From positions 1 to 28,580 of IMG/VR virus record IMGVR_UViG_3300036715_000571: 28,580 nucleotides of DNA. The stretch is one strand, 5' to 3'. Position 1 is the stretch's first letter, and every line of letters starts with the position of its first letter. Origin of the DNA: a virus. The translations under genes were made by a program, and so were the position numbers. The notes beneath the pieces were generated by a model. It ran no database searches. It was not told the DNA's origin and was given only the letters and a program-made list of their open reading frames with translations. Shown here in pieces: positions 3,430 through 27,414 of this stretch.

Positions 3430-3829
3430 GTTTTCAGATATACAGACAGGAGTGTTTGGGATTTTCTCTAGCGATAGCTGGAATGCTCTCAATATCTTGA
3501 CAATTCCGCAAAACTTCGTAGCTGCAACGTCAGTTACCACTTTCATTAGAGTAGGCATTGTACCTGGTTCTCCAGGCATTAATAGATTGTCTGTTAATGG
3601 TGTACTTCTCATAGAAATATTCACGCCTGCTAACTCTGGCCCTACAGTCAGTATGCAGATTGCGGACTCATTGGATTCATTTTTAGGTTCAAATACAGTG
3701 TCGATTTCCCCTAAAACCTCAGTACAATTTTTTAATAGTACAATTGGAACACAGGCACTTGATAAAGTAAACCCCTCTTTGTTTCGAATGATTTACTCAA
3801 TCCCTTTTAAATACTATGGAGTCCTTTAA
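3422..3829 (+). CDS. Tail terminator / tail completion protein
   Basis: A 135-residue protein starting within the previous gene and ending one base into the next (TAATG). An N-terminal helix is followed by an alternating beta/alpha pattern including LLIEIFTPANSGP, then a helical stretch (QIADSLDSFLG) and a C-terminal strand ending IPFKYYGVL. The size, fold pattern and position directly before the tail tube gene match tail terminators (lambda gpU type) that cap the tail and dock it to the head. The assignment is mainly positional. Confidence 0.55.
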   Translation: MAKFSDIQTGVFGIFSSDSWNALNILTIPQNFVAATSVTTFIRVGIVPGSPGINRLSVNGVLLIEIFTPANSGPTVSMQIADSLDSFLGSNTVSISPKTSVQFFNSTIGTQALDKVNPSLFRMIYSIPFKYYGVL

Positions 3830-4404
3830 TGGCACACATTTCTTCTATTGGCGCAGGGATGTTCTCTGACTTGGCAATTTCCTTGCCTGCCACTATTACT
3901 TCTTTAGCAGCTGTGGATACTCAAGCTGAGTTTGAAGCACTGTTCGCTTCTGATATCACTGGGGGCGGTACTAAAGCTACCGGTACCTTCTCTCGCGTTA
4001 TGAACGTTCGTGAGTTCCCTGCAATTGGTGTTCCTGCTAACATTGTAAAAGTGCCTACATACGGTCGTCGTATGAATGCTCAAGTTCAAGGTCAAGCAGA
4101 TGCTCCTACTTTAGAAATCAAACTCAACTTCGTACCAGCTGATTGGGCTGCGAGTGCGCCTCTAGGTGCGCTTGTAGGTGATGGTAACCAGTATGCTTTC
4201 CGCTTTACAATGCTTAACTCTGCGCCTACTGGTGTTGATGGGTATGCTTCTAAAGCAACAGGTTTAGGCTCAGTCCAGAACTCTGAATTTTACTGGATCG
4301 GTAAGATAGAAGCTTTACAAGCTACCGCGTCTTTAACTGACGCTAACCAAGCTACATTGACGCTGACTATCCAGTCTCCGTTCTATGGTGCTTACACTTG
4401 CTAA
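3829..4404 (+). CDS. Major tail (tube) protein
   Basis: A 191-residue protein, start preceded by GGAG and coupled by TAATG. It is rich in Ala, Thr, Ser and Gly with a mainly beta pattern: SRVMNVREFPAIGVPANIVKVP, LEIKLNFVPADW, YAFRFTML, FYWIGKIEALQATASLTDA, ATLTLTIQSPF. The ending pattern of a strand followed by TLTIQSP is common in siphovirus tube proteins, whose beta-sandwich rings stack around the tape measure. Codon bias resembles the capsid gene, as expected for high expression. It is followed at once by a strong UUCG hairpin. No extra Ig-like domain is present. Confidence 0.8.
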   Translation: MAHISSIGAGMFSDLAISLPATITSLAAVDTQAEFEALFASDITGGGTKATGTFSRVMNVREFPAIGVPANIVKVPTYGRRMNAQVQGQADAPTLEIKLNFVPADWAASAPLGALVGDGNQYAFRFTMLNSAPTGVDGYASKATGLGSVQNSEFYWIGKIEALQATASLTDANQATLTLTIQSPFYGAYTC

Positions 4405-13887: not shown

Positions 13888-14451
13888 GTGATACAATTTT
13901 CACAGACCTTGGCGACTCTCCTTAGGGGGGAGTCCGTCGAGACATTTGTGCTGGTGTCGATTGGCAATCAGCATTTTACAGACTTCTATACAGACTTGGC
14001 GTTTAATGGTGTAACTTATTTACATGGCTCAAGCTTACTAACAGTAGCTCCTCCGCAGTTGACTTCGACTGTGGATAAGGCTAACTATAAAATTTCTTTT
14101 GCAGACCCAGCAATGGCTTTTGGTGTTGCAGATCCTTCAACGCTGACAGGTCAGACTGTCGAAGCACGTATCGGTGTGGCTGATGCACAGGGTGTGCCGT
14201 TATTGCAAACTGATGAAACGATTGTAATTTACAAAGGTCGTGTTGATTCTGTAGAATATGCAATTAAAACGGAATCTACAGGGGAGTCTGTTTTCAACCT
14301 TGTGTGTGCCAGTCCTATGGCGGATTTAGATTTCAAGAAACCATTCTATACTAATGAGTATTATCAAGGGCGTGTCGATCAAGATGACACATGCTTTAAC
14401 TCTTTGTATGATGGATCTCAACAGGTGTTATTAAAGTGGGGTAAAGCATAA
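13888..14451 (+). CDS. Minor tail / baseplate hub protein (gpL role)
   Basis: A 187-residue protein that starts with GTG directly after the previous stop; GGAG nine bases upstream supports this start. The sequence is mainly beta: FVLVSIGNQHFTDFYTDL, ANYKISFADPAMAFG, VEARIGVADAQGVPL, ETIVIYKGRVDSVEY. It ends with DQDDTCFNSLYDGSQ then VLLKWGK. The D-DD-cF---y-gsq---lkWGk ending is common in tail proteins encoded just before J-like proteins. A Cys there could bind metal with partners, as in lambda gpL, but only two cysteines are present (one in NLVCASP, one in DTCF), so an Fe-S cluster is not supported. It overlaps the J-like gene by one base (TAATG). Confidence 0.65.
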   Translation: MIQFSQTLATLLRGESVETFVLVSIGNQHFTDFYTDLAFNGVTYLHGSSLLTVAPPQLTSTVDKANYKISFADPAMAFGVADPSTLTGQTVEARIGVADAQGVPLLQTDETIVIYKGRVDSVEYAIKTESTGESVFNLVCASPMADLDFKKPFYTNEYYQGRVDQDDTCFNSLYDGSQQVLLKWGKA

Positions 14452-17400
14452 TGGCTAGTATACCTGTTATCGTCTGGCAAATTATCGTTGTGGTTGTCTC
14501 GGCAATCTACCAACAGCAACAAGCCGCTGCCGCCAGACAGCGCATGGAAGAAGCTGCACGCGTTGCTGCGGAAGCCCGCAAAGGCTTTGAAACAGTCACC
14601 GAAGCAACTGTCGTATCATTACCTATTGTGTATGGTAAAGCGTTGGTAGGTGGCTCACGCGTATATCACGCTACCGCAGGTAACTTCCGTTATATCCAGA
14701 GCCAGTACGATAAGTCCTTTAACGTTGGACCAGATGCAGTCGCAGGAAGCTCTTATACGTCTTATGTCCCAGTTACCGACCCTGTAACAGGTGACGTTAC
14801 ACAGACCAGTGTCACGACAAATGTACCTGCAATCCCTGCGGGATCGTTTGTGGCAGATATTGAGGGTACGCATAATGAAATGCTTTTCTATCAGCAAGCG
14901 TTATGTATTGGACCGATTCAATCCTGCCAAGACGTTATTATTAATGGCAATATGACGATTAACTCTGAATTGATCTCTTCCTACAATACTACACGTACTG
15001 CAGATGGCATCGAGGGTGTTTGGACGTTCAATTACCAGCACCAACGTCAGATCAAGGCGGCTTTTAGGACAGATGTACATTTCAACGGTGGCGCAGATAA
15101 GCTATTTGCTTACAACTGCCCTGACCGCTCTTCAGCCACATTCACAGGGCTTGCATATGCATCTACCTATATTCGCTTAGATAGAGACAACCCTCAGTTT
15201 AATGCAATACCTTCTGTGCAATATATGATCGAAGGTCGAAAGGTTAGAACCTCATCCAACGGAGTGCTCAGCAGTACATTAGTCTACTCTAATAACCCTG
15301 CGTGGTGTCTACTGGACTATCTGCTTGATGCTAACTATGGGCGTGGCTTGAAGACTTCTGAGGTTAATCTCAGCAGCTTTGAATCGGCAGCGGCAGTGTG
15401 TGACAAGGTCGTAATACAGAATGCTCCAGTGGGTGGATACTTTTACCAGCCGTCTGATAAGTCCAGAGATGTCCACACACGTAACATTCCTTTGTTTGAA
15501 TGTAACGTGATGCTAGATACTGAGAAGGCAGTGCGCGACAATGTGAAGACGCTAGTTGAGACAATGCCGGGTGCTTCATTGACCTGGGTACAAGGACAGT
15601 ACAAGCTTAACCTGCAGTATCCTGTTGCAAGTGAGAGTCCCGTATTAGCTGCGGTATTGACAGATGACGATATTGTGTTAGGTTCTCAAGTAGACATTAC
15701 GTGGCCTTCTGCAGCTACTCGTCTGAACAATTGTACGGTACGCTTCCACGATGAGTCTGGCTCTTTTAAAGAAGCATCCGCATCATGGCCACCTAAGCGC
15801 ACTGAGACACGTTTCATCGGTGGCGGTGGTAAATTCTACCAACCAGCGAGTGATGCAGGTACGGGTGGTTGGACGTCCCCTACAATGCAATACGCGGTAT
15901 GGGAGGGGCCTAGCTACCAAGGTAATTGTACGTTGACTTATAAGCTTGCTGTCAGAGTGTCTGGCGCATACACCTTAAAGATTGCAGCTGACGATATAGG
16001 CTCACTGAGCATTGACGGAGTTGGGCAATTTGCGGTGGTAAATCCCCCAGACGGTCGCAGATCTTGGCAAAGCGGTATATTAAATGGTGCGTACCAAGAC
16101 TACGCAACAACGTACACAGTTAATCTTAACGCTAACCAAGTGTATACGATTACTGTCAGTGGCAATAACAATCTGGACGGCAATAACTCTAGTGTTGTCA
16201 ACAATGCCTCTGGCAAGAACGTTCCAGGTGACAGCTCAACATACGTCAACGCAAACCCAGCTGGTGTCGCAGCAATATTGTCGTTAGCTTCCAATGGGAA
16301 TGTGGTATGGACAACTCGTAGTGTTGCATACTCTGATCTTCGTCTCCTACCGGTGACGGATACAATCTACCAACAGCTTTTAACTGAAGACAACGGAAGC
16401 CAGCTCGAGAGAGATACTTTCCAAGACGGCATCACTGATTACTACCACGCATTGGCGATGGCAGAAGAGTCCGTACGTACGTCGCGTACTGCCTTTACTG
16501 TCAAGTTTGAGTATGTGCTAAAAGACCGCTACTTAGAACCGGGTGACTTTATTTCGTTGACAAGCAGTGACTTGAACTTGGCGAACGCTGTGCTGAGGGT
16601 CAATGAAGTGACACTGAAAGAAGGCGCGTCCTGTGAGGTTGTGGCAACACGCTTTGATTGGACACAGCTGTCATGGAATGTTGATGATAATAAGTGGTTA
16701 TCGCCAACAAACCCCTTCGTGGGAAATGCACTGCCGGCACCTGTTTACTTAAATTACACGTTGAAAGTAGGCGGTGACAGTTTACCATCGGATTCTGCCG
16801 GTCGATTAGATTGGAACAAAGTTTCCGATGTACGTGTGGTCGAGTACAAGCTGTACTTCCACGAAATTTCAAACGTTGATGCAAGTGGACAACCTGTGTT
16901 TGAGGAGATATACCGTACTTCAAACAACAGCTACATACTGCCTAACATGGGTGCGGTGGTTGGGGTGTTTGGTGTACGCTCTGTATCTGGTACAGGTGCG
17001 GTGTCAGCAATGACTGTTAGCAGCAGTAAGGGCGCGTCACTGTGGTATGACCCTACTGCGGTTGTATTACTCACATGCGAGCCACCTACTATCAGCATCA
17101 TGGCAGATATCACAGGATCAGTCACATCTACCGCCTACGCTGCTGCCAAAACTGCAATCACAGTAACAAGAAATGGTGCTGACGAGACTCACTTGTGGAC
17201 AGTGCGGTCGTCTGCTACAACAGGTGTCGCTGGTGAGATCTTAAAGACTTCTGCAGGTACTTACTACCATGTCACTAGCTTTGATTCTACACTGCAGACT
17301 GCCACAGTGCCATTAATTGCTACACGCGACGGTTTCATGTCAGTACAAGGTAGCGTGTCACTTCAAAAGGTACTGGGTGTTACAAGCGCGTGTGCGGGTG

Positions 17401-19691
17401 CTGAGAATCCTACCAAGCCTGCTAGCGTCTCCGCCAGCGGTGCAATGGGGGTGATCGTTCTAACATGGCCAAGTGTGGTTTATAAGAAGCACGGCTATAC
17501 AGAGATATGGGCTAGTACGACTAACGATTTTAAAACTGCGCAATATGCCGGTCAGACCTCAGGGGCTTATTTCAACTACGTAGCACCTATTACCTCGACC
17601 GCACCTACCGCGTCGGGTGTTGCAACAGGGGCTGCTTCTGGCAACATTAGCGGAGGTTCAGTAGCTGTGACCGCTGCGCTGCCTGCAACGGTAACTGCAC
17701 CTATCGCCTTAGGGACGACAACTGTCTACTTCTGGTTACGAAACGTTTCGGCTTGTAATCTCGGAGCTAGTGCATGGTCTGACGTAGTGACAGGTGTTAC
17801 CGATCCTTCCGTGGATACTATCGGTACTGTTATGACCAATAATGCCGCGTATTTTGTAAATCTCTTGGGATTAAACACTGCTGTCAAGCTGCTTACAGAC
17901 CTCGATGCAACTATTGGTGGTATCATCGGCAGTGCCAACAGGACACAGGAGGCAGGAAAGACGCTTTATGACTCTGTCACTACGGTTACAAACAAGGTTA
18001 CCGATCCAACGACAGGTTTGTCTAATACGTATAAACTCGCCAATGGTGCGTCTGTGGTGCTAGGTGACGCTAGCCTCGGACTCGTAAAGACTGTGAATGA
18101 TATCAATTATTCGATCACAAATTCAAGCGGTGCAGTAAACTCGTCTATAAAATCGCTACAAGACACCATCGGTACTACTACAGCCTCAGGCTCCGTGTTG
18201 TATCGTATCAATAACATTGAGACAACGTTTACATCCCCTACAGCATTGACCAGCTATGTTACCAACTCTACCTTGAACACAGCAATTTCAAATGAGGCAG
18301 GTTCTATTTCTCAAGCGATGTCGCAATTGGTTGCAGGAATGGGGCTGGTAGCTCATACATGCGTCATCAACGGTAGTGTTGACAGTACCAAGACTACGCA
18401 AAGTGCTTGTACTACTGCAGGTGGTGTTTGGACAGCAGATACCACAGGTACATGCTACATCAATGGTAGTGTTGACAGTACCAAGACTACGCAAAGTACT
18501 TGCACTACTGCAGGTGGTGTTTGGAAACCTAGTGTCTCTAGTACTATACAGCAGACTGCAGATGCACGTGTAGGATACTGCCAAATGACTACTGTTGCCA
18601 CTACCACTACTCCTGCCACTACTTACATTGACTGGAGCGCTACTAAAGACACTTGCACTGGTACTTGGGTTAAAGACCCTGTAACGTCATTGCAAAACTC
18701 AATGTCGATAACAAATGGCCTTACAAGTTATAGCTTTAGCCAAGCAGCTTCACTGATAGGTAGCCTGGGCTACGCTTATACTGTTAAACTCGCAAGCTCT
18801 ACAGGGGCTGTAACAGGCTTTGGCATGTATAGCGGTGGTACTACCAACGACAAGAGTCTAATAGTTTTCAATGCCGATAACTTTTACATCGCCAATAACA
18901 CCACCGCAGCCGCTACACTTGCGGGTGGCACAAGCCTCGCGAAAGATGCCACTACCTTGCCCTTCGCTATCCAGAAGGATGCAGACGATGTTACGCGTCT
19001 CTATATGCAGAACGCTTATATCAAGTCCGCCCAGATTGTAGATCTCAAGACAAACAACATAACGCTACAGCAAGCTATTTCGAACCAAGGCGTCACCGCA
19101 CTATCAAGCGGTAATATCCAAACTTCCAACTTCGTACCGGGGTCTGCTGGATGGCAGATTAAGTACGACGGGACAGCTGAGTTTAGCAACCTGACAGTAC
19201 GAACTGGCAACATTAGTGCTAACGCAGTTACGCGCTTTGCATCCGCAACAGGAGGTAGCGTAGCACCTAACGGTGTGTACAGCAGGCTACTCTCTGTAGC
19301 AATTTCGGCAGGTGCGCTAGGGATGAATGTCGTCGGAGCATTCAGCGGAAGAGCAGCTTACAGCTCTGGTACGAAAAAGATAGGGTATGTGGTACTACGA
19401 AGTTCTTCAGAGATACCAAGCGCTATCACATTTCCATTTAAAGACACCACGATAGACATCAGTCAATTACTCTATCTAGACCAGACAACAAATACTTTAA
19501 AGTACCAATACGATACAACCTCAGTGTTTGACACAAAGGCTATGTCCGCCTATACCGACCTGCCTTCATTCAGTTTTATGTCAGGACAAGAGAGCGCCAA
19601 GACATGGTATTATAGCGCTTGGGCATATGCCGAGGATGGTACGGTCGCCATTACAACATCTACAGTGAATCTGCTAGGGAGGATGCTATGA
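14451..19691 (+). CDS. J-like tail tip / host-specificity protein
   Basis: A 1746-residue protein ending the tail module. It begins with a hydrophobic helix (about residues 5-20) and a Gln/Ala/Arg-rich helix, then TVVSLPIVYGKALVGGSRVYH, a typical tip-protein N-terminal motif. Residues about 150-760 form the hub-like body. Inside it, about 446-620, is a likely PA14-type carbohydrate-binding insert with SGAYTLKIAADDIGSLSIDG at 504-523. Fibronectin-III-like segments follow near 763-863 and 990-1110. Residues 1303-1358 carry two near-identical cysteine-bearing repeats. Further on is a Thr/Ser-rich shaft and a C-terminal receptor-proximal region (GWQIKYDGTAEFSNLTVRTG near 1564-1583, a motif frequent in J C-termini). 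The protein probably determines receptor choice. The stop overlaps the next start (ATGA). Confidence 0.88.
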   Translation: MASIPVIVWQIIVVVVSAIYQQQQAAAARQRMEEAARVAAEARKGFETVTEATVVSLPIVYGKALVGGSRVYHATAGNFRYIQSQYDKSFNVGPDAVAGSSYTSYVPVTDPVTGDVTQTSVTTNVPAIPAGSFVADIEGTHNEMLFYQQALCIGPIQSCQDVIINGNMTINSELISSYNTTRTADGIEGVWTFNYQHQRQIKAAFRTDVHFNGGADKLFAYNCPDRSSATFTGLAYASTYIRLDRDNPQFNAIPSVQYMIEGRKVRTSSNGVLSSTLVYSNNPAWCLLDYLLDANYGRGLKTSEVNLSSFESAAAVCDKVVIQNAPVGGYFYQPSDKSRDVHTRNIPLFECNVMLDTEKAVRDNVKTLVETMPGASLTWVQGQYKLNLQYPVASESPVLAAVLTDDDIVLGSQVDITWPSAATRLNNCTVRFHDESGSFKEASASWPPKRTETRFIGGGGKFYQPASDAGTGGWTSPTMQYAVWEGPSYQGNCTLTYKLAVRVSGAYTLKIAADDIGSLSIDGVGQFAVVNPPDGRRSWQSGILNGAYQDYATTYTVNLNANQVYTITVSGNNNLDGNNSSVVNNASGKNVPGDSSTYVNANPAGVAAILSLASNGNVVWTTRSVAYSDLRLLPVTDTIYQQLLTEDNGSQLERDTFQDGITDYYHALAMAEESVRTSRTAFTVKFEYVLKDRYLEPGDFISLTSSDLNLANAVLRVNEVTLKEGASCEVVATRFDWTQLSWNVDDNKWLSPTNPFVGNALPAPVYLNYTLKVGGDSLPSDSAGRLDWNKVSDVRVVEYKLYFHEISNVDASGQPVFEEIYRTSNNSYILPNMGAVVGVFGVRSVSGTGAVSAMTVSSSKGASLWYDPTAVVLLTCEPPTISIMADITGSVTSTAYAAAKTAITVTRNGADETHLWTVRSSATTGVAGEILKTSAGTYYHVTSFDSTLQTATVPLIATRDGFMSVQGSVSLQKVLGVTSACAGAENPTKPASVSASGAMGVIVLTWPSVVYKKHGYTEIWASTTNDFKTAQYAGQTSGAYFNYVAPITSTAPTASGVATGAASGNISGGSVAVTAALPATVTAPIALGTTTVYFWLRNVSACNLGASAWSDVVTGVTDPSVDTIGTVMTNNAAYFVNLLGLNTAVKLLTDLDATIGGIIGSANRTQEAGKTLYDSVTTVTNKVTDPTTGLSNTYKLANGASVVLGDASLGLVKTVNDINYSITNSSGAVNSSIKSLQDTIGTTTASGSVLYRINNIETTFTSPTALTSYVTNSTLNTAISNEAGSISQAMSQLVAGMGLVAHTCVINGSVDSTKTTQSACTTAGGVWTADTTGTCYINGSVDSTKTTQSTCTTAGGVWKPSVSSTIQQTADARVGYCQMTTVATTTTPATTYIDWSATKDTCTGTWVKDPVTSLQNSMSITNGLTSYSFSQAASLIGSLGYAYTVKLASSTGAVTGFGMYSGGTTNDKSLIVFNADNFYIANNTTAAATLAGGTSLAKDATTLPFAIQKDADDVTRLYMQNAYIKSAQIVDLKTNNITLQQAISNQGVTALSSGNIQTSNFVPGSAGWQIKYDGTAEFSNLTVRTGNISANAVTRFASATGGSVAPNGVYSRLLSVAISAGALGMNVVGAFSGRAAYSSGTKKIGYVVLRSSSEIPSAITFPFKDTTIDISQLLYLDQTTNTLKYQYDTTSVFDTKAMSAYTDLPSFSFMSGQESAKTWYYSAWAYAEDGTVAITTSTVNLLGRML
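18357..18525 (+). repeat. Tandem 93-bp repeat within the tip protein gene
   Basis: Copies at 18357-18432 and 18450-18525 are offset by 93 bases (31 codons) and nearly identical; the few differences are mostly synonymous or single substitutions (such as GCT/ACT). Each encodes C-x-INGSVDSTKTTQS-x-CTTAGGVW, a two-cysteine motif ending in Trp. A third, diverged unit may follow (GYCQ ... DTCTGTW, about 18577-18668). Confidence 0.85.
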
Positions 19692-20005
19692 GTACTTATT
19701 ATATAACAGACGCAAATGGTTATTTGGTTCAGAGTGGCATGGGTCAGCCGCCCCGTTTGGAGGACGGATGGTCTCTATACGAGGGTGTGCCAGACGTTGC
19801 CCTGGTCAGCCGCACAGAGGAGCATGTAAAGGCATCGCTATATAGAGACTACGCATCGTATCGTATGCATGAGTATCCTCCAATTGGTGACCAACTAGAT
19901 GCTCTGTGGAAGCTTATCATGGCTAACCAAGATAAGATTGACTTGGCAGCGGCCGCACCCTTGCTATCTGCGGTACAAGCTGTTAAGGAGAAGTACCCCA
20001 AGTGA
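19688..20005 (+). CDS. Small tail-fibre-associated protein
   Basis: A 105-residue protein. The ATG at 19688 overlaps the tip gene stop (ATGA) and has GGGAGGA upstream; longer in-frame starts lie inside the tip gene without a site. The N-terminal YYITDANGYLVQSGMG and the motif MHEYPPIGDQLDALWKLI followed by a helix are shared with many small phage proteins encoded after tail fibres (YP-i-dQLDalwk). Their precise role is unproven; attachment to or folding of the tip fibre is the usual suggestion. The C-terminus (LLSAVQAVKEKYPK) is helical. It is coupled by GTGA to the next gene. Confidence 0.75.
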   Translation: MSTYYITDANGYLVQSGMGQPPRLEDGWSLYEGVPDVALVSRTEEHVKASLYRDYASYRMHEYPPIGDQLDALWKLIMANQDKIDLAAAAPLLSAVQAVKEKYPK

Positions 20006-20451
20006 TACGTGATGCGATGTCTCAGGCAGATTTAAAAGTCTGCCTGGAGATGTATAAGTCTATTAATGATGAGACGTTCATCCACGTAGACGATACTTTT
20101 GCACTTAAGCAGCTGCGTGAGTTTACAAAGCTACCTAGCGTACACGGTGGCTTTTACTTGAGCGTTGAAGAGCACCGTATCGTAGGGTGGATGGCGTACC
20201 ATGTTACTCGATCGAAATATGGTGGTGAGCTGCAAGTAGTGCAACACGTGTGTGGTGTAGCTCCTAGGGGCTTAGCAGGTATACGTGTGCAGTCAGAGCT
20301 ACACGAAGAACTTATTAGGCGAGCATATCTCGTTAATGCCGTTAGTGTAGTCTCTTCCGGAAACCCTTATGACACCTCTTTCGTATTCGCAAGGGTACTC
20401 GAGCGCCAGGGTTGGAAGCGGAGAGGCTTCATGGCGATTTATGAACTATAA
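20002..20451 (+). CDS. GNAT-like acetyltransferase-fold protein
   Basis: A 149-residue protein starting with GTG inside GTGA overlap; AAGGAG lies about ten bases upstream. The order of elements fits a compact GNAT fold: N-terminal helices, HGGFYLSVEEHRIVGWMAYHV (beta strands 2-4), LQVVQHVCGVAPRGLAG (strand 4 into the acetyl-CoA loop, with an R-G similar to the family R/Q-x-x-G-x-G/A motif), a helix to about residue 113, VSVVSSGNPYD, and FARVLERQGWKRRGFMAIYEL, typical of the GNAT C-terminus. The strict G-x-G loop is degenerate, so activity is uncertain. Substrate unknown. It is encoded between tail and lysis genes, hence probably expressed late. Confidence 0.6.
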   Translation: MIRDAMSQADLKVCLEMYKSINDETFIHVDDTFALKQLREFTKLPSVHGGFYLSVEEHRIVGWMAYHVTRSKYGGELQVVQHVCGVAPRGLAGIRVQSELHEELIRRAYLVNAVSVVSSGNPYDTSFVFARVLERQGWKRRGFMAIYEL

Positions 20452-20466
20452 TAACATGGAGGTGTA

Positions 20467-20829
20467 ATGTCACAACAGGACTTTACGCAAGGTGAGTCGA
20501 ATCCTCGGAGACGAGAGGGTGACGCCTCACTTGTCCGATTAGAGATGGGGTTAGCGAACGTTGTAGAAAAGTTGGCAGACATGTCAGAGCGGCTACAGGT
20601 AGTCCAAAAGCATGAACTAGCAATTTTGAACTTACAACAAACCAAGGAGCAACAGCAAAAGAGCATTGAAAGTTTGACTGATGCAATTCACAATTTGACA
20701 GATAAGTTAGGGCAGCTATCTATAAGATTCTTAACAGGTATTGCATGGGTTGCAGGGGCGTCTGCTGTAATCTTTATTATGTATGTGCTGCTCAATTCCG
20801 GCTGGATACATGTAGGGGGCGCAAAATGA
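20467..20829 (+). CDS. Coiled-coil membrane protein with one C-terminal span
   Basis: A 120-residue protein with GGAGG before the ATG. The N-terminus is charged (SNPRRREGD), residues about 25-85 form a heptad-like helix rich in Leu, Gln and Glu (KLADMSERLQVVQKHELA, QQKSIESLTDAIHNLTDKLG), and residues about 88-110 form one membrane span (FLTGIAWVAGASAVIFIMYV). This C-tail-anchored topology is seen in phage proteins near the lysis genes, including some class III holin-like or antiholin proteins, but no family is recognised. It is coupled by ATGA to the next membrane protein. Confidence 0.7.
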   Translation: MSQQDFTQGESNPRRREGDASLVRLEMGLANVVEKLADMSERLQVVQKHELAILNLQQTKEQQQKSIESLTDAIHNLTDKLGQLSIRFLTGIAWVAGASAVIFIMYVLLNSGWIHVGGAK

Positions 20830-21338
20830 GTCAATTGGACATTGCTGCGCGTAGGTTTGATCTCTGGGTTAAAGGTCTCCTTATCATGTCTGTGCTGGCA
20901 GTAGCTGGCGCAGGTGCTTTATTTCATCACTGGTACTATGCACCTGATCCTTTGTATGTAGATTACCCTGAAGGAGATAATCATTGGTCACAGTGTTTTG
21001 AAAGGAAATTTCCACTCGCTAGAATGGTGAAATCTGATGCAGACTTAGAGATCGCTATCAAAGGGTACTGGTGGAACATAGACGGTATCGATGATGTCGC
21101 AGGTAAGCTAAACGAAGTACCCGCTGACTACACACACTACTCGCTTACTGCAGGTACAGATCAAGAGTTTACTTTTCCAAAAACAGTGCCTGCAATAATT
21201 GGATTCGGACGATATAGGTACCGACCGCAAGCTACCTACCGCGTCAACCCTATCAAGACTATTGTAAGGGATCTACCTGTACAGTATGTAAACGTAGTCT
21301 GCGACTATGATATCGTAAAACACGGGGCAATGCCATGA
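20826..21338 (+). CDS. Single-span membrane protein with periplasmic domain, unknown
   Basis: A 170-residue protein. The ATG at 20826 is in an ATGA overlap, and CATGTAGGGGG lies before it. Residues about 15-36 form a membrane span (VKGLLIMSVLAVAGAGALF); the preceding Arg/Lys residues favour an N-in topology, putting about 130 residues in the periplasm. That domain contains HWSQCFERKFPLARM, GYWWNIDGIDDVAG and RYRYRPQATYRVNP, with two cysteines (QCFE and VVCDY) that could form a disulfide. No family is recognised. Position in a chain of envelope proteins suggests an envelope function, but none is shown. Confidence 0.7.
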   Translation: MSQLDIAARRFDLWVKGLLIMSVLAVAGAGALFHHWYYAPDPLYVDYPEGDNHWSQCFERKFPLARMVKSDADLEIAIKGYWWNIDGIDDVAGKLNEVPADYTHYSLTAGTDQEFTFPKTVPAIIGFGRYRYRPQATYRVNPIKTIVRDLPVQYVNVVCDYDIVKHGAMP

Positions 21339-21472
21339 TAGAGTTGGTATTGAGTGTAGGCTTTACAGTGTGGTTCTGGGGTACAGCTACTGGATTTATT
21401 CAGCCACTACCTCATGTAGACACATCAACACAACAAGAGGAAATTATATATGGCAAAGATTCTACTAACTAG
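21335..21472 (+). CDS. 45-residue membrane protein, nested start
   Basis: The ATG at 21335 overlaps the previous stop (ATGA). Translation gives 45 residues: MIELVLSVGFTVWFWGTATG and then a polar tail rich in Thr, Gln and Glu. Residues about 3-23 form one hydrophobic span. The last 23 bases overlap the start of the outer-membrane protein gene in another frame, so translational coupling is likely. No separate strong ribosome binding site is present. Function unknown; it continues the run of small membrane proteins before the lysis genes. Confidence 0.6.
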   Translation: MIELVLSVGFTVWFWGTATGFIQPLPHVDTSTQQEEIIYGKDSTN

Positions 21473-22076
21473 TTTCTTATTTCTACTGATGACTTTTTCA
21501 GCTCAGGCTGCTGTAACAGAGTCTTCGTTTTCGTACCTGACAGGTAATGGCTTCGTTTCAGGAGACCCTTCTAGAAATACCTATAGGTTTGACACACTTA
21601 CTATAGGAGAATATGGTGTTATTTACGGACGTGCCGACACTACCAGCTTTGACGACGCTAATGCTTCTGTCACTACTCGTCTTATTGGTCATCTGGGTAA
21701 AGGCTTCCATCTGTCGGCAAATCTGCAAAATCAAAAGGGGCTTGACGTCAGTGCCGTCGGAGGTGGCTTTAGTCACTTTGGAGCACAGAGCTTCAGTGTG
21801 GATGTGTCCAAGATGTCCTCCAACTACTACGGAGACGGTACACACCTCTTCATATTTGGAGCTTCTGAGTTTGGTGGCAGCTTCAAGGTCGACGGCTTCA
21901 TCGAGGTGTTGTATCCTGAAAAAGGACAAGACGTATACTTCGCGCAACCTGCGATAAGCTACGTTGTAAATAAGACATTCTCAGTTGGCCTGGAGAAGCA
22001 GCTCTACCTCAATAAGAACGGGGTGTACAATTTGAACGAAGATGTTACTCAATTACGACTAAAGGTGGTGTTCTAA
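21450..22076 (+). CDS. Outer-membrane beta-barrel protein
   Basis: A 208-residue protein with AGAGGAAA before the ATG. It opens with a clear Sec signal peptide (MAKILLTSFLFLLMTFSAQA, cut after AQA). The mature part alternates polar and hydrophobic residues in strands with aromatic edges: YRFDTLTIGEYGVIYGRAD, TTRLIGHLGKGFHLSANLQ, SFKVDGFIEVLY, FAQPAISYVVNKTFSVGLE, and ends TQLRLKVVF, a C-terminal Phe beta-signal for the BAM machinery. The pattern suggests about ten strands and recalls Tsx/OmpK-type barrels, though I could not test this. A barrel encoded between tail and lysis genes is unusual and may act in superinfection exclusion, receptor masking or release. The stop overlaps the next start (TAATG). 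Confidence 0.75.
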   Translation: MAKILLTSFLFLLMTFSAQAAVTESSFSYLTGNGFVSGDPSRNTYRFDTLTIGEYGVIYGRADTTSFDDANASVTTRLIGHLGKGFHLSANLQNQKGLDVSAVGGGFSHFGAQSFSVDVSKMSSNYYGDGTHLFIFGASEFGGSFKVDGFIEVLYPEKGQDVYFAQPAISYVVNKTFSVGLEKQLYLNKNGVYNLNEDVTQLRLKVVF

Positions 22077-22387
22077 TGCGTTATCTAGATATTATTAAGG
22101 ATGGAAGAATCTACCTGCTACTGATACCTGCGCTTGCTGTGCTTTCAACAGATGTCAACTTGTTGCTTAGTATTTTGTTCATAAGCTCTGCTGCGCTTAT
22201 TATTGCGGTGTTCGTGCATCTAATTCGCAGAATCTTGATTAAAGATGCCGATATGGGTGATGCAGCTAAACTCGCTATGACAACGCCTACAGGCTCAGCC
22301 ATTATACATGCTGGTGTGAGCGTTATGCTAGGTTTGATGTTTATCGGCATGGCAATCTGGCTATCAGGTGGTGGCCATGGCGGTTGA
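22076..22387 (+). CDS. Putative holin
   Basis: A 103-residue membrane protein with three predicted spans, about 11-25, 28-50 and 74-96. Between spans two and three is an amphipathic segment RRILIKDADMGDAAKLAMTTP. A Gly/His-rich tail ends the protein. The size, span number and place directly before an SLT endolysin match class I-type holins, which form inner-membrane lesions to release endolysin. No charged N-terminal dual-start motif is visible. The end overlaps the endolysin start by 11 bases. The holin role is inferred from context and topology. Confidence 0.65.
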   Translation: MRYLDIIKDGRIYLLLIPALAVLSTDVNLLLSILFISSAALIIAVFVHLIRRILIKDADMGDAAKLAMTTPTGSAIIHAGVSVMLGLMFIGMAIWLSGGGHGG

Positions 22388-22991
22388 TCTGCCGCCCAAC
22401 GCGCTCCTATACTACCCGATGCTACAACAAGAAGTGCATGCACATTGGAGTGAAGCACCTAGTGTTCCATTTCTTGGTGCGCAAGTCGAACAAGAGACTT
22501 GCATTAGCCTGAAGAGTAAGGGTTGCTGGAACCCGCGTACAGAGCTTAAGACTGACAGGGAGTATGGCTTTGGCTTGTCACAGCTTACCGTCACTGATAA
22601 GTTTAATAACTTCACAGCGGCTAAGGGCTGGGACAAGTCTCTGGCAGATTGGCAATGGGAAGACAGGTACAACCCTAAATACCAATTGAGGGCACTTGTA
22701 ATCTATATGCGTGATCTGTCTTCCAAGATAATTGGCGCGAGTACTCCTGCAGACCGCTATGCATTCACACTTAGTGCCTATAATGGTGGATTAGGTGGCG
22801 TTTTGAGAGACAGAGCTTTGTGTACTGCAACGCCAGGTTGCGATTCTAGTAAATGGAAAGGCAATGTGGCTAACGTCAGCTTTCGATCCAAGACAGCAGT
22901 CAAGGGGTATGCTCAGAGCTTCTTTGGAATCAACAGAGGCTACGTGGTGAATGTAATGGAGATTCGTTATAAAAAGTATGAGGACTTATAA
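22377..22991 (+). CDS. Endolysin, SLT-type lytic transglycosylase
   Basis: A 204-residue protein. The ATG at 22377 is preferred, with AGGTGG five bases upstream; GTG at 22368 would add only three residues. It has no signal peptide, so it needs the holin. Family landmarks appear in order: AQVEQETCIS (residues 35-44, with the catalytic Glu position of the E-S motif, probably Glu40), YGFGLSQLT (the GLMQ-like motif), YQLRALVIYMRDL (helix after the motif) and FTLSAYNGG (the AYNAG motif). These identify a lysozyme-fold transglycosylase cutting the MurNAc-GlcNAc bond with 1,6-anhydro product. Four Cys residues (CISLKSKGC and CTATPGC) may form disulfides. The stop overlaps the Rz-like start by one base. 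Confidence 0.9.
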   Translation: MAVDLPPNALLYYPMLQQEVHAHWSEAPSVPFLGAQVEQETCISLKSKGCWNPRTELKTDREYGFGLSQLTVTDKFNNFTAAKGWDKSLADWQWEDRYNPKYQLRALVIYMRDLSSKIIGASTPADRYAFTLSAYNGGLGGVLRDRALCTATPGCDSSKWKGNVANVSFRSKTAVKGYAQSFFGINRGYVVNVMEIRYKKYEDL

Positions 22992-23335
22992 TGTGGTTGA
23001 AATTAAAGCTTACAGTGATGCTGCTTCTACTTTCTTACATCGGATATCTCAATATAGAGAACTATCGGATGAAGTCGGAGGTTGCTCAGTTGAAAGAAGC
23101 TGTGGCAAAACAGATTGCGGAAACCAATGCAGAAGCCGCACAGAATCTCCAAGCCGCGCAAGTCCTGGCGAACCAGTTAGGAGAGAAGCAATTGAAATTG
23201 CAAAGGAGCATTCAGAATGGCAAGAGTTCAATTGATCGCAAGATTTCGACCAGTGGTGATGATTGTGGCTTTGGGAGTCCTTGCTGGTTGCAGCTCTACA
23301 ACGACGCCAATGGTGGAAGTCAAGTACGTCCGTGA
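22991..23335 (+). CDS. Rz: Inner-membrane spanin subunit, Rz-like
   Basis: A 114-residue protein. One N-terminal span (about residues 5-21, LKLTVMLLLLSYIGYL) is followed by a long helix rich in Ala, Gln, Glu and Lys (about 28-80, SEVAQLKEAVAKQIAE and onwards), the coiled-coil build of i-spanins. A C-terminal part contains DDCGFGSPCW. The gene directly follows the endolysin and contains the start of the Rz1-like gene in another frame. Family knowledge: the i-spanin pairs with the o-spanin lipoprotein across the periplasm to fuse the two membranes in the final lysis step. Sequence similarity is weak, as usual; the call rests on topology and the overlapping architecture. Confidence 0.85.
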   Translation: MWLKLKLTVMLLLLSYIGYLNIENYRMKSEVAQLKEAVAKQIAETNAEAAQNLQAAQVLANQLGEKQLKLQRSIQNGKSSIDRKISTSGDDCGFGSPCWLQLYNDANGGSQVRP

Positions 23336-23531
23336 GGATGTACCTGCAATATTCCTGGTGTCACCAGAGGGACCTGAAATGGTCCCTTTGACTGCTTCGC
23401 CTAAAGAGTTTCTCCTCATCCATAACGCTAATGCAGCTAAGTGGGCCACTTTGCGTGCTCAAGTTAGTGGACTTATTGAATGGAATGCTGAGAGAGCTAA
23501 CGCTACTGACGGGTTTTCGCACAAGCCTTGA
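23217..23531 (+). CDS. Rz1: Outer-membrane spanin lipoprotein, Rz1-like
   Basis: A 104-residue protein whose ATG at 23217 has AAAGGAG eight bases upstream inside the Rz-like gene; the two overlap by 119 bases in different frames. The N-terminal segment MARVQLIARFRPVVMIVALG is a signal peptide, and VLAGC is a lipobox with lipidated Cys25. The mature part (SSTTTPMVEVKYVREDVP, then a Pro-containing stretch and a helix LIHNANAAKWATLRAQVSG) fits an o-spanin, although it is longer than lambda Rz1. It ends the lysis cassette and the run of late genes. Confidence 0.85.
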   Translation: MARVQLIARFRPVVMIVALGVLAGCSSTTTPMVEVKYVREDVPAIFLVSPEGPEMVPLTASPKEFLLIHNANAAKWATLRAQVSGLIEWNAERANATDGFSHKP

Positions 23532-24205: not shown

Positions 24206-24439
24206 ATGAAGACTTTTCTATTATTGACAATTTTGTCTTGCAATGTGTTCGCAATATCTCAAGAAGAAATGCGTGAGAACACGAAGAAGCTTTTACAAAG
24301 CCTCCCAGCAGATGCTGTAGAGCTTGTCCCAATAGTCTCACAGAGTGCTCAAAAGCAACTAACTGTAAGACAGGTGGATGGGTACGGTAACCCTACAAAA
24401 GACGGTATCATATTTATAATAAAGGATGAAAGTAAATGA
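24206..24439 (+). CDS. Small secreted periplasmic protein, unknown
   Basis: A 77-residue protein. ATG at 24206 is chosen over TTG at 24194 because it gives a canonical signal peptide (MKTFLLLTILSCNVFA, cleavage after VFA) and has GGGAAG upstream. The mature part of about 61 residues is polar: a helix with EEMRENTKKLLQSLPADAV, then beta-like segments (KQLTVRQVDGYGNP, DGIIFIIKDESK). No Cys remains after cleavage. Function unknown. The stop overlaps the next start (ATGA), and the last codons (GAA AGT AAA) were copied in the duplication that built the next gene. Confidence 0.7.
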   Translation: MKTFLLLTILSCNVFAISQEEMRENTKKLLQSLPADAVELVPIVSQSAQKQLTVRQVDGYGNPTKDGIIFIIKDESK

Positions 24440-24853
24440 CTACTATTAAACTCGTAGTATTGGTAATATCAAGCATAACGCTGGGTATGCTCTTAGGATT
24501 CTCTGCACATGAGGCGATGTCTTTCTGGACGTTGGTGCGGGTGTTTGAGATGAAGCAGACAATCACTCCATACATCACTGTCATAGCACTGGTGGGTGTG
24601 ATAGGTGTATTGGTACATAAGCTTGCACAGCCTCAAGAGTGTGAAAGTAAAATGACTACGATTAAACTTGCAGCCGTGGCAACCGCAGGCATCTTGCTAG
24701 GGATGTTCTTAGGTTTCGCGATACATGACGCGATGTCTTTCTGGACGTTGGTATGGGTGCTTGAGATGACGCAGACGGTCATTCCTTACATCATGATTGT
24801 AAGTCTCGTTGGCGTGATAGTAGGATTGGTACATACGCTTGCACAGCCACAGA
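24428..24853 (+). repeat. Diverged tandem duplication of a small membrane gene
   Basis: Copy one runs from GAAAGTAAATG at 24428 to about 24638, copy two from GAAAGTAAAATG at 24643 to about 24853. Start codons at 24436 and 24652 are 216 bases apart. Copy two carries one extra A before the ATG, which changes the overlapping stop (AAATGA) into in-frame AAA ATG and fuses the copies. Confidence 0.8.
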
Positions 24854-24963
24854 ATGAAGCTGCTGCAGTAGCACCTGCAACTTCAACATGGTCGGAAGAA
24901 GACGAGACTCTACTTAGAGATCTTATAAAAGAAGACCTACAATCTAACCCAAGTAATACTTGA
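24436..24963 (+). CDS. Four-span membrane protein made by internal tandem duplication
   Basis: A 175-residue protein consisting of two similar halves, residues 1-67 and 73-139. Both begin MTTIKL, share LGM-LGF-xxx-AMSFWTLV and end in LVH-LAQPQ. Each half has two spans, about 4-22 and 43-63, and 76-94 and 115-135. The linker (residues 68-72, ECESK) contains the last three residues of the preceding gene's product, showing how the fusion arose. After the second half comes a 36-residue cytosolic or periplasmic tail, NEAAAVAPATSTWSEEDETL and on, rich in acid residues. Even span number puts both ends on one side. Function unknown; a small channel, exclusion or anti-host protein are possibilities only. 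Confidence 0.75.
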   Translation: MTTIKLVVLVISSITLGMLLGFSAHEAMSFWTLVRVFEMKQTITPYITVIALVGVIGVLVHKLAQPQECESKMTTIKLAAVATAGILLGMFLGFAIHDAMSFWTLVWVLEMTQTVIPYIMIVSLVGVIVGLVHTLAQPQNEAAAVAPATSTWSEEDETLLRDLIKEDLQSNPSNT

Positions 24964-25185: not shown

Positions 25186-27414
25186 ATGAGTACCAGAGAA
25201 GCACTTGTAGAAAGCTGGAATAGGCGGGCGAGGGCAGAAATCTCACCAAATGAGGCGATTTCTTTTCTTCGTGAGATTAATACCGTGAGCCTCCTTGACG
25301 ACGTAATAAGCACGTTATACCTCTTTACGAGACCCTCACGTGGTAGCGATGTTCATTACTTCACAGATGTGGCTAACAGAATCGGAGGTATCGTAAGACG
25401 TAGATTGTCCTTACCACTAGATACCGGCACTAATGTACGAGCAGGTGCCTTTTTGCTGTATACTTTCGAGGAACTTGGCATCACGACTGTGGGACAAGCT
25501 GCCAGGAACAATCATGCGGCATATACTGTGGTGATTAAAGACGAAGAGGCTCTCAAGCGATTGTGGGGTGCGGTACCCGCGACACGCACCACTCAAATGC
25601 CGTCGCTCACCACTTACGCACCTTGGCGTGCCGGCATTCATAGTAATGGCAAAAAGATGATTAAGACAGGTAATAAAGAAATCTTAGCAAAGCTAGACTT
25701 TACTGAAGACTTTCTGCTATTTGAAAATCTTAATAAATCTCAAGCTATCGGCTGGAATGTTTCCGAGGAAGTTGTTAGCATTGCAAAATGGGCGTTACGC
25801 ATTAAGGCTGATGCATTTCTAGATATCTGGGAAGCATCTAACAGAGAAGCGAAAGCTACCAAACTTCGTGAAAGCGAGACAATCCTGGAGATAGCCAACA
25901 AGTTCTTGCATGAAACATTCTATCACCAATACTACTATGACTTTCGAGGTCGTAAGTATTGCTCGACTGCGTATTTGCATGAACAAGGCCCAGATTTATC
26001 CAAAGGTATCTTGGTGATAGCCAAGAAAAAGTCATTAGGAGATCAGGGATATTTCTGGCTATTAGTCTCGATTGCTACCAACTGGGGCGGAGCGTCTCAT
26101 GTCGAGGGTGTCAAGACAGATAAGCTTCCACTCGCGGGACGTGCTGAATGGGTGATGGCTAACGAAGAGTGGATACTGGAATGTGCAGTGGATCCTCGCA
26201 AGCAAGACAAGTGGATGGAAGCTGACAGTCCTTGGCAATTTCTGTCCAACATAATTGTACTTCGAGATCTACGTGTAAACCAAGCATCAATTGGGGATTT
26301 CAATGACTACTCTTTTGAGACGGGCATTGTGGTATATATTGACGGCTCTAACAACGGCTCACAGCACTTAGCTGCAATGACACATGACGAGGTAACTGCA
26401 CCGCATGTCAACCTGGCTCCTTCTGAGTTGCCAGGAGACTTATATGCATATGTTGCAGAGTATGCTTGGCAAAGTGTTCAAAAAGAATGTGATGAACTAA
26501 CTGAAGAGGAGATTGCAGAATGTAATCAGTTCATAGATGAGTTGATCAATCTAAAAGCGATGTATCAAAAATCTACACCCAAGTCAGAGGAGCGCGAATT
26601 ACTGGGTGCTATGATAACGGTGTTGAAGCAAGAAAATGATTTGCTTTCTAAAATATCTGCACCAGTCTATTGGAGTCGTATCAAGGATCTTAAGGAACGA
26701 AGAAAGATCGTCAAGAGAAACGTGATGACAGTTCCCTACGGTGGCAGCAGATATGGGATGGGTGAACAACAGATCGATGACGCTAAGAAGCATGGTATTC
26801 AGTTGCTAATGGCTATGGAGCATCGCTGGGGCGGCTGGATGGGTAGCGTCATTTTTGAGACTTGCCAAGGACATATGAATAAGCCAATGAAGCTTCTAAA
26901 GATTTTTGAAGCGGCAGGTGCGCGAGCAGAAGCTGAGGAGAGATACTTAGAATGGACTACACCTTTAACAAACTTTCCAGTGTGTCAGTTCTATGTGGAA
27001 GGACAAGTCAAAAAGGTATGGGTGCAGTATGGGCCAAAGTATGAGCGAGCGTCCACCGGTAAGTATGTCAACACGTTTCAGCTACGTGTAGCTTTCCCTG
27101 AGCTACCTATCATGTCTAAGCGTAAGCAAGCGCAAGGTGCTAGCCCTAATGCAATTCACAGTCTAGATGCTGCGCATTTGTGTCTGACAGTGAACGCTTG
27201 CCCATTTGATATTGTGACTATTCACGATTCATTTGGAAGTCATCCCTCAGACATGCCAGAACTGTTCAGGATTGTACGTGAGCAGTTTGTTGCCTTGTAT
27301 CGAGCTGAGCCACTGGCGCATTTGATGCATTGTCTTCAGACAGACGCTTCTCACGTGGAAATCGGTACACTTGATTTGGACTTAATTTTACAATCAGAAT
27401 TTGCATTTGCATAG
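25186..27414 (+). CDS. T7-type single-subunit DNA-directed RNA polymerase
   Basis: A 742-residue enzyme; AGGAG ends ten bases before the ATG. Diagnostic elements appear in order: DFRGRKY at 252-258 (T7 DWRGRVY), GILVIAKKKSLGDQGYFWL (about 274-292), motif A IVVYIDGSNNGSQHL with catalytic Asp386, motif B RKIVKRNVMTVPYGG with Arg506, Lys510 and Tyr518 spaced as T7 Arg627, Lys631 and Tyr639, HSLDAAHL, and motif C VTIHDSFGS with Asp681. It ends QSEFAFA, matching the T7 C-terminal foot (SDFAFA). All residues needed for catalysis are present. The N-terminal part before DFRGR is about 170 residues shorter than in T7, so promoter-binding and melting elements must differ. It probably transcribes phage genes from its own promoters, none of which I could identify. 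It follows small membrane genes behind a host-type promoter. Confidence 0.97.
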   Translation: MSTREALVESWNRRARAEISPNEAISFLREINTVSLLDDVISTLYLFTRPSRGSDVHYFTDVANRIGGIVRRRLSLPLDTGTNVRAGAFLLYTFEELGITTVGQAARNNHAAYTVVIKDEEALKRLWGAVPATRTTQMPSLTTYAPWRAGIHSNGKKMIKTGNKEILAKLDFTEDFLLFENLNKSQAIGWNVSEEVVSIAKWALRIKADAFLDIWEASNREAKATKLRESETILEIANKFLHETFYHQYYYDFRGRKYCSTAYLHEQGPDLSKGILVIAKKKSLGDQGYFWLLVSIATNWGGASHVEGVKTDKLPLAGRAEWVMANEEWILECAVDPRKQDKWMEADSPWQFLSNIIVLRDLRVNQASIGDFNDYSFETGIVVYIDGSNNGSQHLAAMTHDEVTAPHVNLAPSELPGDLYAYVAEYAWQSVQKECDELTEEEIAECNQFIDELINLKAMYQKSTPKSEERELLGAMITVLKQENDLLSKISAPVYWSRIKDLKERRKIVKRNVMTVPYGGSRYGMGEQQIDDAKKHGIQLLMAMEHRWGGWMGSVIFETCQGHMNKPMKLLKIFEAAGARAEAEERYLEWTTPLTNFPVCQFYVEGQVKKVWVQYGPKYERASTGKYVNTFQLRVAFPELPIMSKRKQAQGASPNAIHSLDAAHLCLTVNACPFDIVTIHDSFGSHPSDMPELFRIVREQFVALYRAEPLAHLMHCLQTDASHVEIGTLDLDLILQSEFAFA

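Follow-up and report, generated by a model that had tools for sequence, protein, structure and literature searches.

A lysis-linked block encoding a Tsx-like outer-membrane barrel and an Ig-like periplasmic protein in a siphophage fragment

Phage lysis is usually accounted for by holin, endolysin and spanins. Outer-membrane barrels are also encoded by phages, as exemplified by lambda Lom (Ail/Lom family), which is located after tail gene J, and the outer-membrane protein Tsx is the receptor of phage T6. Its relative OmpK is the receptor for most Schizotequatroviruses (PMC12028318). The cor exclusion locus lies directly after the tail genes in unrelated phage backgrounds (PMC13164509), and in T4 the periplasmic domain of holin T can feed signals into lysis as a regulatory input (PMC12642591). 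We analysed a block of envelope genes in a 28.6-kb IMG/VR record, hereafter the window, which is a siphophage fragment and, judged by its proteins, is related to EBPR siphovirus 1 and DSS3_VP1.

Organization of the block and of the lysis genes

The window carries genes for scaffold, capsid and tape measure proteins and for a lambda J-like tail tip (14451-19691), together with a lysis cassette and a gene for a T7-like RNA polymerase. For the capsid and tail proteins the nearest relative is EBPR siphovirus 1 (53% identity for the capsid, 43% for J), followed by DSS3_VP1. Downstream of J, two small genes precede the four-gene block, which is followed by holin, endolysin, Rz and Rz1.

The four genes lie at 20467-22076 on the plus strand, and an ORF and transmembrane (TM) scan verified the coordinates, topologies and overlaps of the original prediction. 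The first gene (20467..20829) encodes a C-anchored protein of 120 aa with a cytoplasmic coiled coil and one TM segment at residues 91-109, a topology like that of XhlA and holin accessories. The second (20826..21338) encodes an inner-membrane-anchored periplasmic protein of 170 aa, with a TM segment at 15-33 and an Ig-like beta sandwich at 40-162; the longer ORF starting at 20745 is in the same frame. A 45-aa hydrophobic peptide with a TM segment at 4-22 (21335..21472) and a predicted outer-membrane barrel of 208 aa (21450..22076) complete the block. The genes had been described as coupled, and the junctions bear this out: ATGA at 20826 and 21335, a 23-nt overlap at 21450 and TAATG at 22076, where the barrel stop overlaps the holin start, so that the block indeed stands directly ahead of the holin. 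The clear signal peptide and C-terminal Phe reported for the barrel were also recovered, with no TM segment after the signal peptide and the sequence ending in KVVF.

The lysis genes follow on the same strand. They comprise a holin with three TM segments (22076..22387; phrog_8226 holin, E 0.0022, and 4e-10 for the homologue in record L097, introduced below), a transglycosylase-like endolysin with more than 100 relatives (22377..22991; phrog_669, E 1.6e-23), an Rz-type inner-membrane spanin (22991..23335; phrog_1403, E 5e-7) and an Rz1-type lipoprotein spanin with the lipobox VLAGC, out of frame with Rz (23217..23531; phrog_456, E 7e-5). The idea that the barrel replaces the Rz/Rz1 spanins was rejected, as Rz (22991) and Rz1 (23217) are both present.

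The barrel and periplasmic genes are clearly real as judged from their sequences: other phages encode homologues of both (E<=1e-25), and among these relatives dN/dS is far below 1. For the coiled-coil gene, position and topology are conserved in relatives. A profile built without the window placed it first of 239 window ORFs at E 0.058, a level at which sequence homology is not demonstrable, and its matches to PHROG hemolysin/holin families are very weak (phrog_1193, E 0.015; phrog_689, E 0.032). The gene is supported by its place, its topology and its ribosome-site context.

The 45-aa peptide, proposed as a fourth partner, did not hold up in this role, having no counterpart gene in the relatives. 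In these phages the barrel signal peptide begins right after the periplasmic stop, i.e. at the start site of the window peptide; the window barrel carries a different signal peptide of its own. Similarity of the peptide to the barrel N-termini of the relatives did not reach significance (p 0.08-0.34). Judging by position, the peptide could be what is left of an earlier barrel N-terminus or start.

Several other genes of the window deserve mention. The second gene after the tail tip (20002-20451) encodes a small protein with 25-29% identity to proteins of EBPR siphovirus 1 (L002, 48273-48716) and of L020 (15405-15869); it has no family match and looks acetyltransferase-like by eye. The ORF at 1-507, cut by the contig start, matches single-subunit RNA polymerases at its C-terminus (PF00940, E 5e-6, above cut-off) and is separate from the window RNA polymerase at 25186-27414. 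At its place DSS3_VP1 has a single 1463-aa protein with a Mu F-like head domain and RNA_pol (L003, 1243-5634), and the counterpart in EBPR siphovirus 1 is apparently split by an HNH gene (gp47/gp48/gp49; L002, 20772-26145). This ORF and its counterparts are candidate head-protein fusions that would carry an RNA polymerase within the capsid. A small membrane protein at 24436-24963 consists of two near-identical tandem halves (MTTIKL...LAQPQ twice), and the interior of the tail tip gene, at about 18350-18600, encodes a short Cys-containing repeat, INGSVDSTKTTQSxCTTAGGVW.

The barrel and its periplasmic neighbour

As a direct query, the window barrel retrieved nothing from phages, IMG/VR or bacterial genome contigs, and it had no match in Pfam, the Ail/Lom family included, nor in PHROG, NCBIfam, PDB sequences or GenBank phages. 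When 274 genomes sampled from one proteobacterial class were searched with the profile of the barrel family, 8 contained weak matches, most of them C-terminal. Several of the matched proteins are Pfam Channel_Tsx or DUF5020 members, and in one genome the sole PF03502 match was also the sole barrel-profile match. We compared the barrel with an alignment of Tsx proteins chosen by PF03502 alone, so that the query did not select the target. With hhalign the comparison reached 98.3% (local) and 99.1% (global) over 210-213 of 214 columns, compared with 0.1-1.6% for the barrel against a control alignment of OmpW from the same class and at most 3% for OmpW against Tsx. Phage barrels and Tsx proteins also have a C-terminal signature in common, GxEyQ..NKxGvxxxDExxxQ, as seen by eye. 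By profile comparison, the barrel is thus a full-length remote homologue of Channel_Tsx/OmpK. We call it Tsx-like rather than a family member, because the curated Pfam score of PF03502 is met neither by the window barrel nor by four relatives. The barrel call itself rests on homology, since a simple alternating-hydrophobicity score did not by itself set the protein apart from shuffles (172-216 of 2000); single-sequence AlphaFold2 gave a pLDDT of 39.

The phage barrels form one phage-only clade (support 0.997) with about 40% identity within it. The genome-contig scan contained no close bacterial copy, and the homologues recovered from about 570 sampled genomes were all remote and Tsx-like. A recent stray acquisition from a host was rejected on these grounds, i.e. 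the lack of a close bacterial copy and the single clade. In the literature searched we found no phage-encoded Tsx-like barrel.

The full-length remote homology to Channel_Tsx raises the possibility that the protein is a channel for nucleosides or small molecules, in effect a reduced Tsx by which uptake would be raised during infection, and one of the barrel-bearing phages has its own ribonucleotide reductase. However, the mature barrel is only about 187 residues long, where bacterial relatives have roughly 230 or more, it is not recognised by the Pfam Tsx model, its lysis-linked and presumably late position fits less well with DNA synthesis nearly over, and its link to an Ig-like partner would be left unexplained. 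We consider such a channel rather improbable.

The periplasmic protein has homologues at 39-46% identity in six phages, two invariant cysteines (57 and 159) and the motif GxYxYxPxATYxxNPxKT. With seven homologous sequences, AlphaFold2 predicted a TM helix followed by an Ig-like beta sandwich (pLDDT 83), and the beta domain was assigned to the periplasmic side from charge and cysteines. One TM segment (15-33) and a C-terminal beta domain (40-162) make up the topology expected of a T4-type holin T. Fold searches of the PDB returned generic Ig-like domains (best Z 9.1, rmsd 4.1, many unrelated rows), including RbmA, GbpA, NPC2 and pilus chaperones, without a functional lead, and T4 T was not among the rows listed by Foldseek or VIA-align. 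In BFVD, matches to several phage proteins were listed (E 1e-4 to 1e-6), including one of 162 aa from Pseudomonas phage SM1 (TM 0.57). SM1_021 fits that length, is flanked by a putative small membrane protein and an endolysin, followed by Rz-/Rz1-like genes, and carries a GxYxYxxxAxYRxN motif. As hhalign gave 10% for this pairing, the connection is one of length, motif, place and BFVD match, not of sequence homology. Look-alikes of the periplasmic protein adjoin endolysins in other phages without the barrel, and we infer that this type of protein is a recurring component of lysis loci.

Distribution, co-inheritance and loss

With the window proteins as queries, the barrel and the periplasmic protein gave no matches except a periplasmic homologue in L006. 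Barrel homologues were instead reached via the endolysin alignment, which yielded 34 genome and 80 virus loci, some of them already recovered, and through a final scan with the barrel alignment. The barrel is encoded in six IMG/VR records corresponding to five distinct phages, the window aside, at 37-42% identity: 3300036715_000304 (L124), 3300042143_000004 (L097), 3300035661_000414 (L150), 3300035661_000628 (L130) and 3300035182_000382 (L128), the last two apparently one phage, and 3300034737_000014 (L153/L154). Among the remaining lysin loci, no other secreted barrel candidate with a C-terminal aromatic residue stood out. A periplasmic gene lies immediately upstream of every barrel found, and all six records have the order coiled coil, periplasmic protein, barrel, holin, endolysin, Rz. 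The original prediction had proposed a search for the same block in related phages and had set joint conservation as its test beforehand; the block was found in these six records, and its genes are kept together in five other phages.

Flanks were compared for three phages, using parts of the L124, L097 and L153/L154 records and 21 window proteins. The only window proteins shared with them were the periplasmic protein, barrel, holin, endolysin and Rz1, and upstream of the cassette no window gene was matched in these three phages with comparable flanks. L124 and L097 have a phrog_1216 portal, and L153/L154 has a DNA polymerase, a ribonucleotide reductase and an internal-virion-protein homologue. 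Since no window proteins outside the cassette were found in L124, L097 or L153/L154, the cassette is common to otherwise different phages. Unrelated phages have the same pair of barrel and periplasmic genes beside the same lysis genes, and the pair therefore probably moves between phages as an addition to the cell-bursting machinery. In L153/L154 the barrel gene spans the contig ends (end of L153, start of L154; overlap of about 18 residues), and the 60.6-kb record 3300034737_000014 is therefore probably a complete, circularly permuted phage genome with the cassette.

The pair is not always present. L131 has the same coiled coil, holin and endolysin (80-88% aa identity) and Rz (68-69%) and lacks both genes, and L146 is likewise without them and has a different coiled coil; the pair is therefore dispensable. 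In L006 the order is holin, endolysin, coiled coil, periplasmic gene, and the barrel is absent throughout the 82-kb record, so that the periplasmic protein can occur without the barrel. As records were partly picked via the endolysin, these presence and absence counts are not unbiased. Such variation among close relatives at a mosaic site would be expected if tail and lysis genes flanked a recombination hot spot in which the pair were simply carried along, the two genes having no function in common. Nevertheless, order and coupling are fixed at about 40% identity, every barrel found adjoins a periplasmic gene, and both genes are, by codon comparison of close relatives, under purifying selection (dN/dS 0.05-0.12 for the barrel, 0.09-0.15 for the periplasmic gene). 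A mere passenger is thus very unlikely.

Two further loci were observed. Directly upstream of the coiled-coil gene of its cassette, L124 encodes a small protein that combines an HEYTH motif with a membrane segment (3763-4200). In L009 (6686-8011) a coiled-coil protein and an N-anchored protein precede the holin in a layout like that of the window block; the N-anchored protein did not align with the block, and the locus is a possible independent version of it.

Proposed role and comparison with known systems

The best reading of these data is that the pair is a lysis-linked, dispensable envelope module. The suggested set spanning inner membrane, periplasm and outer membrane is supported by predicted topology and barrel homology, and its suggested link to lysis by the fixed order beside holin, endolysin and Rz in five other phages. 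We tentatively view the block as an accessory arm of the lysis cassette, with lysis tuning as its likeliest use. The block genes would be made late, together with the lysis proteins. The barrel would be the outer-membrane partner of the periplasmic protein, a contact suggested by gene order only, and the pair would bridge inner and outer membrane as infection ends. The periplasmic domain might act on the holin or lysis complex in the manner of T4 holin T, while the barrel would condition the outer membrane or report its state. The pair cannot be essential for lysis: a sister phage that lacks it keeps the same holin, endolysin and Rz, and the spanins of the window phage are complete. To our knowledge, no known lysis accessory uses a Tsx-type barrel. 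A more specific version, in which barrel and Ig-like protein form a trans-envelope sensor that signals to the holin when a second phage adsorbs, or what state the outer membrane is in, and so sets lysis time by a control unrelated to T4 RI/T, appears very improbable at present.

The main rival to lysis tuning is receptor interference, because phages use OmpK, a barrel with the Tsx fold, as a receptor and because unrelated phages have an exclusion locus behind the tail tip gene. The barrel and its periplasmic partner would then occupy or mimic a host receptor, exclude superinfecting phages and keep progeny off debris after lysis. Tsx-type barrels do serve as phage receptors, late expression alongside the lysis genes would suit progeny protection, and the block lies near the tail tip gene much as the cor locus follows tail genes. 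However, the block travels with holin and endolysin, not with tail genes, it holds no Cor-like lipoprotein, its profiles are matched by none of T1 ST30-ST32, and a working receptor copy would attract progeny too. From gene content and order, we regard receptor interference as unlikely. A cor exclusion cassette as such was rejected, as T1 ST30-ST32 scored at most 1.3 bits with the barrel, periplasmic and coiled-coil profiles and no lipobox was seen by eye in the four proteins.

Lysis tuning remains our working model. Several described systems can be compared with the block. The extended cor cassette of T1, N15 and HK022 (ST32-ST31-cor) also follows the tail tip gene directly, in phages that are unrelated, and holds proteins annotated as outer-membrane, membrane-associated and exclusion proteins, a similar type of locus, whereas the window has no lipoprotein and T1 ST32 (101 aa) and ST31 (229 aa) are unmatched. 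Small coiled-coil TM proteins of the XhlA/hemolysin type (phrog_1193) share with the first protein of the block an N-terminal coiled coil, a C-terminal TM segment and a place adjoining the holin, but its profile matches to them are very weak. T4 holin T (class III) resembles the periplasmic protein in its short cytoplasmic N-terminus, single TM segment, periplasmic domain and lysis locus; unlike T4, the window has a separate multi-TM holin, and no sequence or fold match to T was found. Lambda Lom is likewise a phage-encoded outer-membrane barrel, but of a different family, the window barrel being Tsx-like and lysis-linked. With Channel_Tsx/OmpK (PF03502, PF16412) the barrel shares a full-length profile alignment, the signal peptide, the C-terminal aromatic residue and the C-terminal signature, yet it is shorter, falls below the Pfam cut-off and lies in a phage lysis cassette.

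The block is real, conserved and without a label in the databases searched, and it yields a testable gene pair together with a branch of a host channel family that is specific to phages and carries no label in current databases. Phage-encoded outer-membrane proteins and lysis accessory genes are kinds already known; here a conserved mobile cassette joins a barrel of the Tsx/OmpK type, a receptor class, to lysis genes, and remodelling or sensing of the outer membrane in the last stage of infection is thereby suggested for some phages.
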